A DNA stretch of 64,000 bases, from positions 3,720,001 to 3,784,000 of the forward strand of contig NZ_CP070225.1 of the NCBI RefSeq assembly GCF_021631985.1. Direction: 5' to 3'. This DNA comes from Sandaracinus amylolyticus. GTDB taxonomy: Bacteria > Myxococcota_A > Polyangia > Polyangiales > Sandaracinaceae. This document shows positions 43,740 through 50,386 of this stretch, piece by piece. The first letter of the stretch is position 1. Each line of letters begins with the position of its first letter. The notes beneath the pieces were generated by a model. It had not been told where the DNA came from and did no database searches. It was given only the letters and a program-made list of their open reading frames with translations. Both the position numbers and the translations under genes were made by a program.

Positions 43740-44064
43740 CGTGCTCCGTGCCCGGCCACTCGCCTCGGTGAGTGAGTACTTGCCCTCTGCCGCGAGGTCG
43801 CGCGGCTCGTCGGAGCTCGTGCTCGCTCGCGAGAGGCGCGCTCGCGCAAATAACGCGAGAGGGGCCTTCGGGCGGGCGGACGCTAGGCCGCTCCAATGAG
43901 GCTGTCAAGCGAGGACGCCCGCGCGCGAGAACAGGCTTCCCATCGGTGTCGACGTGCGTGTAGTCTTCGGCGCGATCGAGGCCCGGAGCGCTGTCGAGGG
44001 ACCTTCGATCCGAGCGAGGGGGACGCTTCTCAGTCACGAAGCATTGGTCCTCCTGGAGGCGCAA
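43740..44064. other. Divergent intergenic region, nuoE and zinc-ribbon gene
   Basis: These 325 bases separate two divergent genes and must hold both promoters. I see no gene and no convincing sigma-70 pair. The AT-richest point is CAAATAAC near 43855, a possible -10 region for the leftward nuo operon. Confidence 0.4.
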
Positions 44065-45420
44065 GTGACCGTCTTCTGTCCCAACTGCGGAAAACCGAAC
44101 ACCGACACGGCGACCCAGTGCGTCGCGTGCGGCACCGGCCTGAAGCCCAAGGCGGCCGGCTCGAAGTTCAAGGGCACGATGATGATGACGGGCGTGACGC
44201 CGCCGAAGCCGGGAGCGCCGGCCGCGGGTGGAGCGCCGCCGGGACCGCCGCCGCAGGGCGCACCGCCGGGACCTCCGCCGCCCCAGGGCGCGCCGCCGCC
44301 CGAGGCCGGAGGACAGAAGCAGAACCTCGCCTTCCAGGCGACCATGCTGGGCCCGATGACGCCGCCGCCGGGCGCGCCTCCGGGAGCACCGCCTCCGGGT
44401 GGTGGCTTCGGGGCGCCGCCGCCGGGTGGTGGATTCGGAGCGCCGCCTCCGGGTGTTGGATTCGGAGCGCCGCCTCCGGGTGGTGGCTTCGGGGCGCCGC
44501 CTCCGGGTGGTGGATTCGGAGCGCCTCCGGGTGGTGGCCCGGGCACGCCGCCGCCGGGCGGTGGCTTCGGCGCGCCGCCTCCGGGTGGTGGATTCGGAGC
44601 GCCTCCGCCGAGTGAGGCGCCGGGCGGGTTCGGAGCGCCGCCTCCGAGCAGCAATGCGCCGGGTGGGTTCGGCGCGCCGCCTCCGGGTGGTGGCTTCGGG
44701 GCGCCGCCTCCGGGTGGTGGATTCGGCGCGCCTCCGGGCGGTGGTCCGGGCACGCCGCCGCCGGGCGGTGGCTTCGGGGCGCCGCCTCCGGGTGGTGGGT
44801 TCGGGGCGCCGCCTCCGGGTGGTGGATTCGGCGCGCCTCCGGGCGGTGGTCCGGGCACGCCCCCGCCGGGTGGTGGCTTCGGCGCACCCCCGGGTGGTGG
44901 CTTCGGAGCGCCTCCGGGTGGCCCGCCTCCGGGCGGTGGCTTCGGCGGGGCGCCTCCGGGCGGGCCGCCTCCGGGTGGCTTCGGTGGGGGCCCGCCGGGT
45001 GGTCCTCAGCCGCCGATGGGCGCAGCGCCCGCGGCGCCGGGTGGTCCCGCGAAGAGCAACACCGGCAAGTACGTCGCGATCGGCTGCGGCGTGCTCTTCA
45101 TGTTCTGCTGCGTCTCCAGCATCGTCTACAACGTCGTCTGCGGCGGCATGGCGGCGATGACCGCGCCGACGCCGGTGGTCGCGCCCGACGGCACGACCGT
45201 CCCGGCGGATCCCGGTGCGGTCGGTGGCGCGGGCGTCTGCGGCCGCGCGGCGGAGTGCTGCAACGCGTATCTCTCGGCGATGGGCACGCCCGGCGTCGTC
45301 GACTGCGGCATGTACAACAGCATGCCGGCGGGCGCGGAGACGGGCTGTCAGTCGGCGATCGACGGCTGGCGTGCCGGCCTGCAGGCGCTCGGCCGCGAGG
45401 TCCCGGCCGCCTGCCAGTGA
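44065..45420 (+). CDS. Zinc-ribbon protein with PGGGFGA repeats and membrane anchor
   Basis: A protein of about 451 residues. The N terminus is a zinc ribbon (CPNCGKPNTDTATQCVACG). The middle, about residues 95-325, is low complexity: about 16 units of PPPGGGFGA-type sequence plus three GGGPGT variants, near-identical even at DNA level. One hydrophobic helix follows (YVAIGCGVLFMFCCVSSIVY), then a compact Cys-rich domain (CGRAAECCNAYL, VDCGMYNSM) that would lie outside. GTG 44065 has GGAGG 5 bases upstream and directly precedes the ribbon. The function is unknown; the layout suggests a membrane-tethered scaffold. Confidence 0.75.
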   Translation: MTVFCPNCGKPNTDTATQCVACGTGLKPKAAGSKFKGTMMMTGVTPPKPGAPAAGGAPPGPPPQGAPPGPPPPQGAPPPEAGGQKQNLAFQATMLGPMTPPPGAPPGAPPPGGGFGAPPPGGGFGAPPPGVGFGAPPPGGGFGAPPPGGGFGAPPGGGPGTPPPGGGFGAPPPGGGFGAPPPSEAPGGFGAPPPSSNAPGGFGAPPPGGGFGAPPPGGGFGAPPGGGPGTPPPGGGFGAPPPGGGFGAPPPGGGFGAPPGGGPGTPPPGGGFGAPPGGGFGAPPGGPPPGGGFGGAPPGGPPPGGFGGGPPGGPQPPMGAAPAAPGGPAKSNTGKYVAIGCGVLFMFCCVSSIVYNVVCGGMAAMTAPTPVVAPDGTTVPADPGAVGGAGVCGRAAECCNAYLSAMGTPGVVDCGMYNSMPAGAETGCQSAIDGWRAGLQALGREVPAACQ

Positions 45421-45517: not shown

Positions 45518-45892
45518 ATGTGGAGCATCGAGTTCGACCCGTCGACGCGGTTGATGACGCTTCGACTGGTGCACCAGGTGACGGCGCCGCAGATGCGAGC
45601 GCTCTCGCGCGCGCATGCGTCGGCGCTGGCCGCGACGGGCGGTGAGCCGTTCAAGGTGCTCGGCGATCTCCGCGGGCTCACGCCCCTCGACATCGAGTCG
45701 GCGTCGCTCTTCACCGAGCTCCGTCGCGCGGCGGCCTCGCTGCCCGGGTTCGTGCGACGCGCGGTGCTGACCGACTCGCCGACCGTCGCGATGCAGCAAC
45801 GTCGCTCGGTGTACGAAGAGGGCGGCTCGCGCGAACGGGAGCTGATCACGCTCGACGAGGGCGAAGCGCGCGCGTTCCTCGTGCGCGACTGA
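45518..45892 (+). CDS. Hypothetical protein, possibly STAS/SpoIIAA-like
   Basis: A 124-residue protein (133 from an alternative GTG at 45491). The pattern WSIEFDPSTRLMTLRLVHQV, then PFKVLGDLRGLTPLDIESAS and RAVLTDSPTVAMQQ alternates strands and helices as in STAS or SpoIIAA-like domains, but no diagnostic motif is present, so this is only a fold-level suggestion. There is no signal peptide or membrane segment. It is a single gene between a terminator-like hairpin and the next operon. Confidence 0.55.
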   Translation: MWSIEFDPSTRLMTLRLVHQVTAPQMRALSRAHASALAATGGEPFKVLGDLRGLTPLDIESASLFTELRRAAASLPGFVRRAVLTDSPTVAMQQRRSVYEEGGSRERELITLDEGEARAFLVRD

Positions 45893-45981
45893 GCGCGCCG
45901 CCACGATTTCGCCACGTTCTCTCCTCGCGATCTCGAAGCGCCCTCCCCGCGTGCTCCTCGGCGGCGCGCGACCTTGCGCTC

Positions 45982-46572
45982 ATGACGAGCACGACGGGAG
46001 ATCTCGCGGCGATCGGTCCGCGAACGAGCGAACAGGGAGCACGCGAGGACGTGCTGGAGATCGCGCGACGAGGAGCGATGGGGCTCGCGCTCGCGTCGAT
46101 CGCCGGCCTCGCGATGGGCGCGCGCGGAGGCGCGCTCTCGATGGCGGTGCACGCCGCGGGTGTGCCGCTCGCGCTGCTCGCGGTGGTGGCGCTCGGGGTG
46201 CCGAGCCTCTTCGTGTTGCTCGCGCTCGCCGATGCGCCGCTCGATCCACGCGCGACGGCCGCCGCCGCGACGCGCGGCATCGGTGCGAGCGGGCTCGTCC
46301 TCGCCGGCCTCGCGCCCGCGATCGCGCTCTTCGTCGTCACCAGCGAGAGCGCCGATGCCGCCGCGCTCACGACGAGCGGCGGTCTCGCGCTCGCAGGGCT
46401 CGTGGGGCTGGGGCACGTGCTGCGCGAGATCATGCGCGAGCTCGACGAGGCCGATCTGCGCACGCGCGCGCTCGCGATCGGCGGGCTCGCCGGGTTCGCG
46501 GTGTTCGCGAGCGCGCTCGCGACGCGGGTCTGGGGCGCGCTGCTGCCCGTGCTGCTCGGAGGTGCATCGTGA
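45982..46572 (+). CDS. Uncharacterised multi-pass membrane protein (operon gene 1)
   Basis: A 196-residue Ala/Leu-rich protein with about five hydrophobic segments: AMGLALASIAGLAMG, the AGVPLALLAVVALGVPSLFV region, SGLVLAGLAPAIALFVV, LALAGLVGLGHVL and ALAIGGLAGFAVFASALAT. No family is recognised. It opens a six-gene run joined by 4-base overlaps that ends with a two-component system and a lipoprotein. It overlaps the next gene at GTGA, so the two proteins are probably made in step and may form a complex. Confidence 0.65.
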   Translation: MTSTTGDLAAIGPRTSEQGAREDVLEIARRGAMGLALASIAGLAMGARGGALSMAVHAAGVPLALLAVVALGVPSLFVLLALADAPLDPRATAAAATRGIGASGLVLAGLAPAIALFVVTSESADAAALTTSGGLALAGLVGLGHVLREIMRELDEADLRTRALAIGGLAGFAVFASALATRVWGALLPVLLGGAS

Positions 46573-47234
46573 GCGAGCTGCAGCTCATCCTGCGTCGCCC
46601 CGCCGAGGCCGCGCGGCGCGCAACCGAGGGCGAGTCGCTCCGCACGCTGGTCGCGACCTCGCTCGCGGCGATCGTGTGCGGCGCTGCGGCGTTCGGTGGC
46701 GTCGTCGGATCGTTCCGTGGTGGGCTGCAGATCGCGTACGCCGCGGTGAAGCTCCCACTCGCGCTCTGCGCGACCCTCGCGATCGCGGTGCCCGCGTTCC
46801 ACGCGATCGGCGTCGCGCTCGGACAGCGCTGGACGTTCCGCGGCGTCGTCGCGCTCAGCCTCGCGTCGGCGGCGCGCGGCGCGCTGGTGCTCTTCGCGCT
46901 CGCGCCCGCGCTCTGGCTCGCGATCGATCGCGGTCTCGCGTATCACGCGACCGCGCTCGCCGCGACGCTCGCGTTCGCGCTCTCGGGCGTGGCTGCGCTC
47001 GCGGTGTTGCTGCGCGGGCTCGGCGGTCACGGCCTCGCGCAGCTCGCCAGCGCCGTCGCGATCGCGAGCGTGTTCCTGCTCGTGTCGGGTCAGACGAGCT
47101 GGATCCTGCGGCCCTGGCTGGTGCGGCCGCGCACCGAGGACGTCCCGTTCGTGCGTGCCCGCGAGGGCAGCTTCGCCGACGCGCTGGCGCGCTCGAGCCT
47201 CTCCGCGACCGGCCGCTACGAGGGCGAGCGATGA
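46569..47234 (+). CDS. Uncharacterised membrane protein, Yip1-like pattern (operon gene 2)
   Basis: A 221-residue membrane protein. The soluble N terminus ELQLILRRPAEAARRATEGE precedes about five hydrophobic helices, including TLVATSLAAIVCGAAAFGGV and LPLALCATLAIAVPAFHAIG. This short head, followed by a helix bundle with a conserved P-x-x-A, resembles Yip1/YIP-domain proteins, but the match is weak. It starts at GTG 46569 (overlap GTGA) and ends at an ATGA overlap with the next gene. Confidence 0.65.
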   Translation: MSELQLILRRPAEAARRATEGESLRTLVATSLAAIVCGAAAFGGVVGSFRGGLQIAYAAVKLPLALCATLAIAVPAFHAIGVALGQRWTFRGVVALSLASAARGALVLFALAPALWLAIDRGLAYHATALAATLAFALSGVAALAVLLRGLGGHGLAQLASAVAIASVFLLVSGQTSWILRPWLVRPRTEDVPFVRAREGSFADALARSSLSATGRYEGER

Positions 47235-47920
47235 GCCCGCTGCAGCTCCTCGCGCTCTATCTCGGGGTCGGCGCGATCGCGGCCGCGGTGGTCGCGCGGC
47301 GCCAGCAGGGTGCGCTCCCGATGCGCCTCGCCTCGGCGCTCGTCGCGTGGGCGCTCTGGCCGCTCTGGGCGCCCATCGCGCTGGCACCGGCCGAGCGCCA
47401 CGATCCGCGCGCGCCGATCGCGCGACGCCTGCACGCCGTGCTCGACGAGGCGCTCGTCGCCGCCGAGAGCACCGCGCTCGCATCGCTCCTCTCGCGCGAC
47501 GCCGCAGCGCGTATCCGCGCCGACATCGATCGCGCGATGACGCGCATCGCACGGCTCGACGATGCGCTCGGGCGACCGGGGTTCGATCTGCGCGCCGCCG
47601 AGTCGCGCGTGATCGAGCTCGAGCGCAGCGGGGCCACGGCGCGCGCCATCGCGACCGCGCGCCTGCACCGCGACGGAGTCGCGCGCCTCGAGCACGCGCG
47701 CACCCAGGATCATCGTGCGCTCGTCGAGCTCGAGGGCGCGCTCGAGGCGCTCCGGAGCCAGATCGTGCTCGCACAGGTCGCGGGCGCGGCGCCCGACGAG
47801 GTCGTCTCGGAGCTCTGGGCGCGCGTCGAAGGGCTCGGCGCCGCGCTCGACGTGACCGAGGAAGGCCCGAGCGCGTCCGTGGTAGATCGAGAGCGGACCG
47901 AAGCGGAGGCGCGCGCTTGA
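47231..47920 (+). CDS. Membrane-anchored helical protein (operon gene 3)
   Basis: A 229-residue protein. Two N-terminal hydrophobic segments (LQLLALYLGVGAIAAAVVA and LASALVAWALWPLWAPIAL) are followed by about 160 residues of charged, Ala/Arg/Glu-rich helix (for example ALVELEGALEALRSQIVLAQ) that should form a coiled coil in the cytosol. No family is recognised. It starts at ATG 47231. Its stop overlaps the response regulator start. Lying directly ahead of the regulator, it may link membrane state to signalling. Confidence 0.65.
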   Translation: MSPLQLLALYLGVGAIAAAVVARRQQGALPMRLASALVAWALWPLWAPIALAPAERHDPRAPIARRLHAVLDEALVAAESTALASLLSRDAAARIRADIDRAMTRIARLDDALGRPGFDLRAAESRVIELERSGATARAIATARLHRDGVARLEHARTQDHRALVELEGALEALRSQIVLAQVAGAAPDEVVSELWARVEGLGAALDVTEEGPSASVVDRERTEAEARA

Positions 47921-48615
47921 GCCGTCACATCCTGGTCGTCGACGACGAGGCTCGCATCCGCGAGGTCGTGCAGTACGCGCTGGCGCGCGAGGGTCATCGC
48001 GTGACGGTCGCGGGTGATGGCAAGGGCGCGCGCGATGCGTTCGCGCGGGGCGACGTCGAGCTCGTCGTGCTCGACGTGATGCTGCCCGACGTCGACGGCC
48101 TCACGCTCTGCCGCGAGATCCGCGCGTCGTCGCGGGTGCCGATCCTCTTCCTGTCGGCGCGCAGCGACGAGATCGATCGTGTGCTCGGGCTCGAGCTCGG
48201 CGGTGACGACTACCTCACGAAGCCGTTCTCGCCGCGTGAGCTCGTCGCGCGCGTGAAGGCGGTGCTGCGCCGCATCGAAACGCCGGCCGAGAGCCCGGCC
48301 GCGCCGCCGACGAAGGGCGCGCGCCTGCGCCACGGAGCGATCACGATCGACCTCGAGCGCCACGAGGTGCGCTACGGCAGCGAGCTCGTCGCGCTCACGC
48401 CCACCGAGCTCGGCATGCTCGCCGCGCTGATCGAGCGCCCCGGCATCGTGCTCTCTCGCGGCCAGCTGATGAAGCGCGCGTACGCCTACGACAACCTCGT
48501 CACCGAGCGCACGATCGACACCCACGTGCGGCGCATCCGCGCGAAGTTCCGCGCGCTCGGCGGCGACCCGATCGCGACGGTGCACGGCGTCGGCTACAAG
48601 GCCGCAGGAGCCTGA
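47917..48615 (+). CDS. OmpR-family response regulator
   Basis: A 232-residue two-domain regulator. The receiver is ILVVDDEARIREVVQYALAR with the acidic pair, VVLDVMLPDVDGLTL with the phosphorylated Asp, LFLSARSDE and DYLTKPFSPREL. The C-terminal winged helix has ALTPTELGMLAALIERPGIV, RTIDTHVRRIRAKF and TVHGVGYK. It starts at TTG 47917 (TTGA overlap) with GGAGG 7 bases upstream, so this rare start codon looks genuine. The kinase gene follows directly. Confidence 0.92.
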   Translation: MSRHILVVDDEARIREVVQYALAREGHRVTVAGDGKGARDAFARGDVELVVLDVMLPDVDGLTLCREIRASSRVPILFLSARSDEIDRVLGLELGGDDYLTKPFSPRELVARVKAVLRRIETPAESPAAPPTKGARLRHGAITIDLERHEVRYGSELVALTPTELGMLAALIERPGIVLSRGQLMKRAYAYDNLVTERTIDTHVRRIRAKFRALGGDPIATVHGVGYKAAGA

Positions 48616-48680
48616 CGATCCTCGGGCCGCTCACGCTCACGAGGCGCATCTCGGGCGGCATCCTCGCGCGCCTGCTCCTC

Positions 48681-50159
48681 GTGAACCTGCTCGTGCTGCT
48701 CGTGCCCTGGGCGGGGCTCGAGTTCGCGCGCGTCCACGAGCGCCAGCTCCTGCTCTCGCTCGAGCGCGACATGCGCAACCAAGCGGTGCTCGCGCGCGAG
48801 ATCGCCGAGGATGCGATCGCGACCGGGCGCGAGCTCGAGTCGCCGCGCGTGATGCGCATCCTGGTCGACGCGGCGCGCACCACACGCACCCGCGTGCGCG
48901 TGCTCGACGAGCAGGCAGTGGTGCGCATCGACTCGCACGCGTGGGGCCCACCCGAGGGCCCCGAGCCGCCCCCGCCCACCGTCGTGCCCCAGGAGATCTA
49001 CGACCTCTCCAACGACATCCGTCGCTCGAGCGCGCGCGTGGCGCGATGGAGCGACGAGGGCGATCGCTGGCCGCTCGTCGCCGACCGACGCGAGGTGCGC
49101 GAGGCGCTCGCGGGACGCCCCTCCGCGTACACGCGCCTGCGCGCCGAGCATCCCTCGGTGATCCTCTTCGTCACCGAGCCGATCCGTCATCGCGGCCGCG
49201 TGACCGGCGCGATCTACGTCACGCGCTCCACCCAGCCGGTGCTCGAAGAGCTCTACAAGATCCGCGCGGGGCTCACCGTCGTGATGGGCGTCGCGGTGTT
49301 CCTCACCGCGCTGCTCACGCTCGTGCTCGCGTGGTCGATCTCGCGCCCGCTCACGCGCCTCGCGCGCGCCGCGCGCCGCATCGCGGCCGGTGAGCGCGAC
49401 GTGATCGTCCCGGTCGGTGGGAGCGGCGAGATCCGCGACCTCTCGCACGCGTTCGCGACCATGACCGCGCAGCTCGATCGACGGCTCCGCTACATCTCGG
49501 AGTTCGCGGCCGACGTCGCGCACGAGTTCAAGTCGCCGCTCACCTCGATCCGCGGCGCCGCCGAGCTGCTCGGAGAAGGCGCGGCCGAGGACCCCGAGAC
49601 GCGCGAGCGCTTCCTGCGCAACATCCAGCTCGACGCCGATCGTCTCGATCGCCTGGTCTCGCGCCTGCTCGAGCTCTCGCGCATCGAGGCCTCGCGCGAG
49701 CCGATGGGCGACGTCGATCTCGCGGCGGTGATCGCGCGCGTCGTCGAGCGCACGCAGAGCCCCGATCCCCGCGTCGAGGTGCACGCGCCCGCGACGCTGC
49801 CCGCGCTGCGCGGCCGCGAGAACGACCTCGAGCGCGCGCTGCTCAACCTCGTCGAGAACGCGATCCGCTTCTCGCCCCCCGGTCGGCCGGTGACGATCAC
49901 CGTGGAGCTCGCGCGCGGCGCGATCCTCCTCGCGGTGCGCGATCACGGCCCGGGTGTCGCGCCCGAGCATCGCGCGCGCATCTTCGAGCGCTTCTTCACG
50001 ACCGACGCCGAGCGCAACGGCACGGGCCTGGGACTCTCGATCGTGAAGAGCGTCGCCGAAGCGCACGGTGGCAGCGTGCGCCTCGACGAGCACGCCGCGC
50101 CGGGCGCGCGTTTCGTCGTCACGCTGCCGCTCGGAGCGCGTGGTAGCGTGCGCGCGTGA
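48681..50159 (+). CDS. ChvG-like sensor histidine kinase
   Basis: A transmembrane kinase of at least 492 residues. HAMP begins SRPLTRLARAARRIAAGE. The H box is DVAHEFKSPLTSIRGAAELL. The N box NLVENAIRFSPPG and G boxes DHGPGVAPEH and GTGLGLSIVKS are intact. The periplasmic part resembles the ChvG stimulus-sensing domain. GTG 48681 is the first ordinary start but lies inside the first membrane helix. The in-frame codons before it (48612-48680) encode the expected basic lead-in LTLTRRISGGILARLL, reaching a CTG at 48612 that overlaps the regulator stop. The true start is probably there or at ATC 48618. Confidence 0.88.
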   Translation: MNLLVLLVPWAGLEFARVHERQLLLSLERDMRNQAVLAREIAEDAIATGRELESPRVMRILVDAARTTRTRVRVLDEQAVVRIDSHAWGPPEGPEPPPPTVVPQEIYDLSNDIRRSSARVARWSDEGDRWPLVADRREVREALAGRPSAYTRLRAEHPSVILFVTEPIRHRGRVTGAIYVTRSTQPVLEELYKIRAGLTVVMGVAVFLTALLTLVLAWSISRPLTRLARAARRIAAGERDVIVPVGGSGEIRDLSHAFATMTAQLDRRLRYISEFAADVAHEFKSPLTSIRGAAELLGEGAAEDPETRERFLRNIQLDADRLDRLVSRLLELSRIEASREPMGDVDLAAVIARVVERTQSPDPRVEVHAPATLPALRGRENDLERALLNLVENAIRFSPPGRPVTITVELARGAILLAVRDHGPGVAPEHRARIFERFFTTDAERNGTGLGLSIVKSVAEAHGGSVRLDEHAAPGARFVVTLPLGARGSVRA

Positions 50160-50386
50160 GGATCGCGATCGCCCTCGTGCTCGCCGCGCTCGCCTCGTGC
50201 GGGACCTCGAGCGCGCCCCCACCTTCGTCGTCGCCGAGCCCGAGCGCGCAACCGGCGCCCGCTCCATCGCCGACTGCGCCCGCGCCGATCGTACGTGACG
50301 TCGCGCCTGCCGAGCCCGATGAAGAGGGAGCGATGGCGGAGCCGCCGCCGGTCGAGCCGCCCGCGATCGAAGCGAGCGCGCCCTAG
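50156..50386 (+). CDS. Small Pro/Ser-rich lipoprotein
   Basis: A 76-residue product with a signal peptide (RIAIALVLAALAS) and lipobox LASC. The rest is Pro/Ala/Ser-rich and acidic, with no fold, resembling a tether or stub. GTG 50156 overlaps the kinase stop by 4 bases, so it is probably the last gene of the operon. It could report envelope state to the kinase, but nothing in the sequence shows this. Confidence 0.55.
   Translation: MRIAIALVLAALASCGTSSAPPPSSSPSPSAQPAPAPSPTAPAPIVRDVAPAEPDEEGAMAEPPPVEPPAIEASAP

Follow-up and report, generated by a model that had tools for sequence, protein, structure and literature searches.

A probable CreBC-like two-component operon with three undescribed membrane proteins and a putative cre-tag-like box in Sandaracinus amylolyticus and other Myxococcota

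A stretch of 64 kb from Sandaracinus amylolyticus (contig NZ_CP070225.1, positions 3,720,001 to 3,784,000; 64,000 nucleotides, hereafter the window) carries on its + strand, between positions 45982 and 50386, six open reading frames (ORFs) in which each gene is joined to the next by a 4-base overlap (GTGA, ATGA, TTGA, CTGA and GTGA, in gene order). The first three encode membrane proteins, A, B and C, together referred to as the trio, and are followed by the genes of a response regulator (RR), of a sensor histidine kinase (HK) and of a small lipoprotein-like product, F. From the comparison with relatives, the locus probably encodes a Myxococcota version of a CreBC-like envelope two-component system, autoregulated and placed in one transcription unit with a new inner-membrane trio. 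CreBC is known mainly from gammaproteobacteria and has few confirmed targets, and CreD is an inner-membrane effector of unclear function. The features of the locus are the following.

45900..45915, + strand: tandem repeat GCCACGATTTCGCCAC, cre-tag-like, 5-N6-5 with an 11-bp period; putative RR box
45982..46572, + strand: gene A, ATG start; polytopic membrane protein of 196 amino acids (aa), homologue of B
46569..47234, + strand: gene B, GTG start; 221 aa, five predicted transmembrane (TM) helices
47231..47920, + strand: gene C, ATG start; 229 aa; membrane hairpin at the N-terminus, then a helical bundle/coiled coil
47917..48615, + strand: RR, TTG start; CreB-like response regulator of the OmpR family
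48612..50159, + strand: HK, CreC-like sensor histidine kinase; start probably CTG
50156..50386, + strand: gene F, GTG start; small proline-rich lipoprotein-like ORF

All six ORFs and all five overlaps, first read from the DNA letters in an earlier annotation (the original prediction), are present at these positions. The kinase frame contains no ATG, GTG or TTG upstream of 48681, and a comparison of N-termini indicates that the orthologous kinases have about 20 residues ahead of the equivalent point, including positive charges before the first TM helix. Because the orthologues extend upstream in this way, the kinase probably starts with the CTG at 48612, a plausible candidate that lies in the CTGA overlap; the kinase gene of a same-genus relative is likewise without a usual start codon.

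The regulator combines a receiver (Response_reg) with an OmpR-type DNA-binding domain (Trans_reg_C), as had been proposed, and the kinase is made of a TM helix, a periplasmic domain, a second TM helix, HAMP, HisKA and HATPase_c. The best NCBIfam equivalog is CreB for the regulator (232.5 bits, below the curated cut-off of 273) and CreC for the kinase (235.7 bits, below the curated cut-off of 356), with ChvG as the second-best kinase model (213.6 bits, below the curated cut-off of 740). CreB and CreC were each the best model for three of the four relatives tested, always below the cut-offs, and the identity to the E. coli proteins is about 39% for the regulator (CreB) and about 28% for the kinase (CreC). 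These profile scores place the kinase nearer to CreC than to ChvG and mark the regulator as CreB-like; the two are not filed as CreBC equivalogs because they stay under the curated cut-offs. The order of the genes, RR then HK, is also that of CreBC (E. coli creABCD) and of BlrAB (Aeromonas), the best-matching equivalog families. The original prediction had called the kinase ChvG-like, a label that gives way to CreC, the higher-scoring model. A sensor of acid or of the envelope, of the ChvG-ChvI (ExoS-ChvI) type, would fit the resemblance of the kinase to ChvG over most of its length, the rank of ChvG as second model for the window kinase and as best model for one relative (locus L085), and a weak match to Stimulus_sens_1 (E 0.009, below cut-off). 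Nevertheless, CreC scores higher for the window kinase and three of the four relatives, ChvI is absent among the 25 best NCBIfam models of the regulator, whose best model is CreB, and both the CreB-like box and the linkage to creD, described below, are hallmarks of CreBC, so that a ChvG-ChvI identity is very improbable.

The three leading proteins had been said to match no known family, and this holds in Pfam and NCBIfam, where A and B match no model and C gives only sub-threshold coiled-coil-like matches, none of them credible. As judged from profiles, A and B are homologous, paralogous membrane proteins with five TM helices, since their families align with an hhalign probability of 97% (E 1.9e-10) and the B profile matches A at E 8.6e-7. 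AlphaFold predicts five long TM helices for B, with a mean predicted local distance difference test score (pLDDT) of 87.8, and for C a helical bundle preceded by a short membrane hairpin (mean pLDDT 84.6). By sequence, no solved relative of B was found and the search of solved structures with C yielded chance coiled-coil matches only; by fold, Foldseek returned no match to B at E <= 0.001. The fold candidates were rejected: for B, the VIA matches, with Z up to 6.7, are no better than those of unrelated helical bundles, and for C the BAR-like and designed helical bundles, with Z up to 9.9, fall in a range common for such folds. Rejected as well was a homology of A and B to CreD (PF06123), with no Pfam match and an hhalign probability of 0.2% (E 0.39), or to DUF1361 (PF07099), for which the profile comparison shows no homology. 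For the annotation 'actin-binding WH2 domain-containing protein', which B-like sequences may carry, the literature search gave nothing relevant. Distant A/B-like paralogues are found elsewhere in the window genome (G000) at L073 (contig 1, 10016790-10018114), L071 (contig 1, 6173566-6174267) and L072 (contig 2, at about 195781, on a replicon of 209.7 kb), and one such locus is a tandem pair with neither C nor a two-component system.

The order A-B-C-RR-HK, to the exclusion of F, is the unit kept across the families of Myxococcota, among others in Polyangium, Sorangium, Minicystis and Sandaracinaceae, and the linkage recurs in several families. At the level of the order, 46 of 144 genomes contain a relative of gene B, and for Myxococcota as a whole the figure is 53 of 282. 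Across the same 144 genomes, B and the kinase sensor region occur together in 34, B only in nine, the kinase region only in eight and neither in 93 (Fisher P 3e-17, with genomes taken as independent and shared ancestry not corrected). Among the loci in which A, B and C can be recognised, nearly all show a 4-base overlap of B with C and an overlap of 4 bases or 1 base between A and B, and the regulator starts at -4 relative to C in about half of the relatives' loci; since these overlaps recur in relatives, the coupling, as read from the aligned junctions, exceeds chance.

The same survey returned genomes in which the unit is split. The RR-HK pair is present without the trio (L187-L191) in G053, G058, G067, G082 and G140 (genomes are given as G numbers, loci as L numbers); the trio is present without the orthologous pair in G079, G034, G141, G015 and G056; and G108 has both, on different contigs. 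At L055, L057, L058 and L060 a trio without the orthologous pair adjoins a different RR-HK pair, divergently transcribed and about 40% identical, which gives the impression that another regulator has stepped in. The original prediction had derived from the overlaps an equal synthesis of one envelope-sensing complex, which was to be judged by whether relatives keep the regulator and kinase with the trio elsewhere; this arrangement occurs, in the five pair-only genomes and in G108. A stoichiometric complex of A, B and C with the kinase, relaying an envelope signal, would agree with the tight overlaps and with the phylum-wide linkage of the trio to the pair, but pair-only genomes, trio-only genomes and the unlinked arrangement of G108 make it improbable. 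The two parts occur apart, and therefore a single obligate sensing complex is unsupported, though the trio may still touch the kinase physically; what persists of the earlier proposal is a conserved, tightly coupled, envelope-related operon with a two-component system.

A comparison of the regions upstream of gene A in relatives brought out the tandem repeat with an 11-bp period. In the window it reads GCCAC-N6-GCCAC, lies 66 bp before gene A and is unique in the 64 kb on both strands. The binding of CreB/BlrA depends critically on the cre/blr tag TTCACN6TTCAC, located upstream of creD (PMC4689548); in E. coli K-12 the tag TTCACCGTCACTTCAC stands 77 bp before creD. As a 5-N6-5 direct repeat upstream of an operon, the window box shares its geometry with the cre tag, and it differs from that of CreBC/BlrAB in having GCCAC instead of TTCAC. 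The box is conserved 5' of gene A across Myxococcota in three dialects, namely GCCAY-N6-GCCAY in Polyangiales, TGCAC-N6-TGCAC in other families and, at one locus (L103), the canonical TTCAC-N6-TTCAC. Within the Polyangiales loci, a box within 200 bp is found for 11 of 601 gene starts, which are ten genes A and one DUF1361 gene. For the TGCAC dialect the count is 10 of 246 gene starts, nine genes A and one regulator gene itself. Under a uniform rule, 38 loci have both a linked regulator and a trio box, eight the regulator only, six the box only and ten neither (P 0.001; this P value and the one given below for creD treat genomes as independent and are thus optimistic). The recognition-helix tripeptide of the regulator follows the dialect, being DTH with GCCAY (31 cases) and DSH with TGCAC (15 cases), with two exceptions, and the regulator of the single TTCAC case has DAH. 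This residue alone is not what sets the specificity, because E. coli CreB pairs DTH with a TTCAC box. The repeat is described here as the putative binding site of the operon's own response regulator.

In G108 the trio, although unlinked from the pair, retains the regulator box GCCATGATTTCGCCAC, and because of this the trio looks like a regulated output and not like an obligate part of the sensor. The same observation bears on another possibility, that A, B and C make up a membrane machine in its own right, such as a transporter or an organiser of lipid domains, which only hitch-hikes in a CreBC-like operon with a function unrelated to envelope maintenance. Trio-only genomes without a box are in favour of such a passenger, as are the tandem A/B-like pairs that lie at other places in the genome with neither C nor a two-component system beside them; the box that stays on the unlinked trio and the recurrence of the trio/RR-HK linkage in several families speak against it, and it is considered rather unlikely. 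At L107 (G159) the regulator gene is also unlinked from the trio, and each of the two has its own TGCAC box.

Further genes bear the box. In relatives it stands before creD and DUF1361 genes as well as the trio, and hardly anywhere else. A whole-genome scan with the GCCAC box gave about ten matches per genome, mostly intragenic, in which only DUF1361 recurred; two intergenic matches in different genera were both upstream of genes of this family. DUF1361 genes found with Pfam carry the box in G000, G002, G024 and G018, and with one mismatch in G045; in G018 the gene and the trio operon are divergent, and in G203 the DUF1361 box is in the TGCAC dialect. The DUF1361 gene of G015, a genome without the regulator, has no box. 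DUF1361 thus has in common with the trio the box in Sandaracinaceae and G203, and differs from A and B in lacking homology to them. In the window genome the gene is a predicted second target of the regulator.

7968956-7969577 of contig 1 (G000): DUF1361 gene (L168, L211), with the box CGCCACGATTTCGCCAT just upstream

The scan with the TGCAC dialect returned the DUF1361 gene of G203, creD in three genera and single unconserved matches. In the strongest test, with creD genes collected by a Pfam search blind to the box, about 30 genomes across the phylum were found with a box, in all three dialects and mostly 75-130 bp before the start, a distance shared with the creD target of CreBC/BlrAB. A creD box is accompanied by an orthologue of the regulator in 24 genomes, with seven having the regulator only, three the box only and 12 neither (Fisher P 3e-4). 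The genes are contiguous as RR-HK-creD in G173 and G198, with a regulator of the same lineage and the box before creD, an order that corresponds to creBCD, and in the order creD-RR-HK in G183. The loss of creD harms envelope integrity in Stenotrophomonas maltophilia (PMC4689548). CreD has in common with the trio the box type in relatives and the inner membrane, and differs in showing no homology to A and B.

From these data a model can be proposed in which the CreC-like kinase would sense an envelope or metabolic cue and phosphorylate the CreB-like regulator, which would then bind the GCCAC-N6-GCCAC box at 45900-45915 and switch on A-B-C-RR-HK jointly, in a positive autoregulation. In the same genome the regulator would also switch on the gene of the DUF1361 membrane protein, and in relatives the same box would drive creD. 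A, B and C would most likely be effectors at the inner membrane, alongside CreD or replacing it. The regulatory part of this model is well supported by the conservation of the box and its association with the regulator; binding, activation and positive autoregulation are inferred, and the role of the trio in envelope maintenance is suggested by analogy with CreD. The window operon differs from CreBC/BlrAB in its three new membrane genes, in its apparent autoregulation and in a genome without creD, with DUF1361 as predicted target. A more specific version, in which A, B and C form an undescribed inner-membrane maintenance complex under CreBC-like control, as partner or substitute of CreD, and in which regulator and box have co-evolved through TTCAC, TGCAC and GCCAC, is put forward tentatively, as somewhat less probable than its negation.

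Several observations weigh against the proposed model. Both regulator and kinase score under the curated CreB and CreC cut-offs. An exact trio box is missing at 8 of the 46 loci with a linked regulator (two of the eight have a degenerate one), and 6 of the 16 loci with no linked regulator have it nevertheless. Some of these exceptions come from thresholds, as the regulators next to L103 and L109 fall narrowly short of the cut-off; the regulator lies elsewhere in the genome for L039 (G108) and L107, and the box is degenerate at L042 and L043. As to creD, seven genomes that have both a regulator orthologue and creD are without the exact creD box (two of them have a one-mismatch version), three that have a creD box are without a regulator orthologue, and the window genome itself has no recognisable creD. 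Moreover, the whole-genome count of GCCAC-N6-GCCAC in the window genome is near background, 10 matches vs 8 for the control, and therefore only conservation singles out the real sites. Finally, the envelope role suggested for the trio would follow solely from its membership of the regulon.

Gene F carries the lipobox LASC and matches no Pfam or NCBIfam model. Its only tblastn match is in a same-genus genome (62% identity), so the small lipoprotein, present and overlapping as described originally, is by its distribution a genus-specific accessory outside the ancient unit and not a member of it. Upstream of the operon, positions 43954-45420 of the window encode a zinc-ribbon protein that has a GFGAPPPGG repeat of some length and, ahead of the C-terminus, a hydrophobic segment. 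The operon is preceded by a small ORF (45518-45892) which has the same position in Sandaracinaceae (cluster c7, eight loci), is not conserved in other families and has no Pfam match.

The literature search, extending to titles and the openings of abstracts, found no paper describing CreBC in myxobacteria, and none was found on the role of DUF1361. A box-defined regulon in Myxococcota would put three nameless membrane families, together with creD and DUF1361, under a single switch. These uncharacterised families would thereby gain a shared and testable context, which for the trio is the first functional lead, and the pairs of regulator and box may serve as a natural series for studying how specificity changes in the OmpR family.

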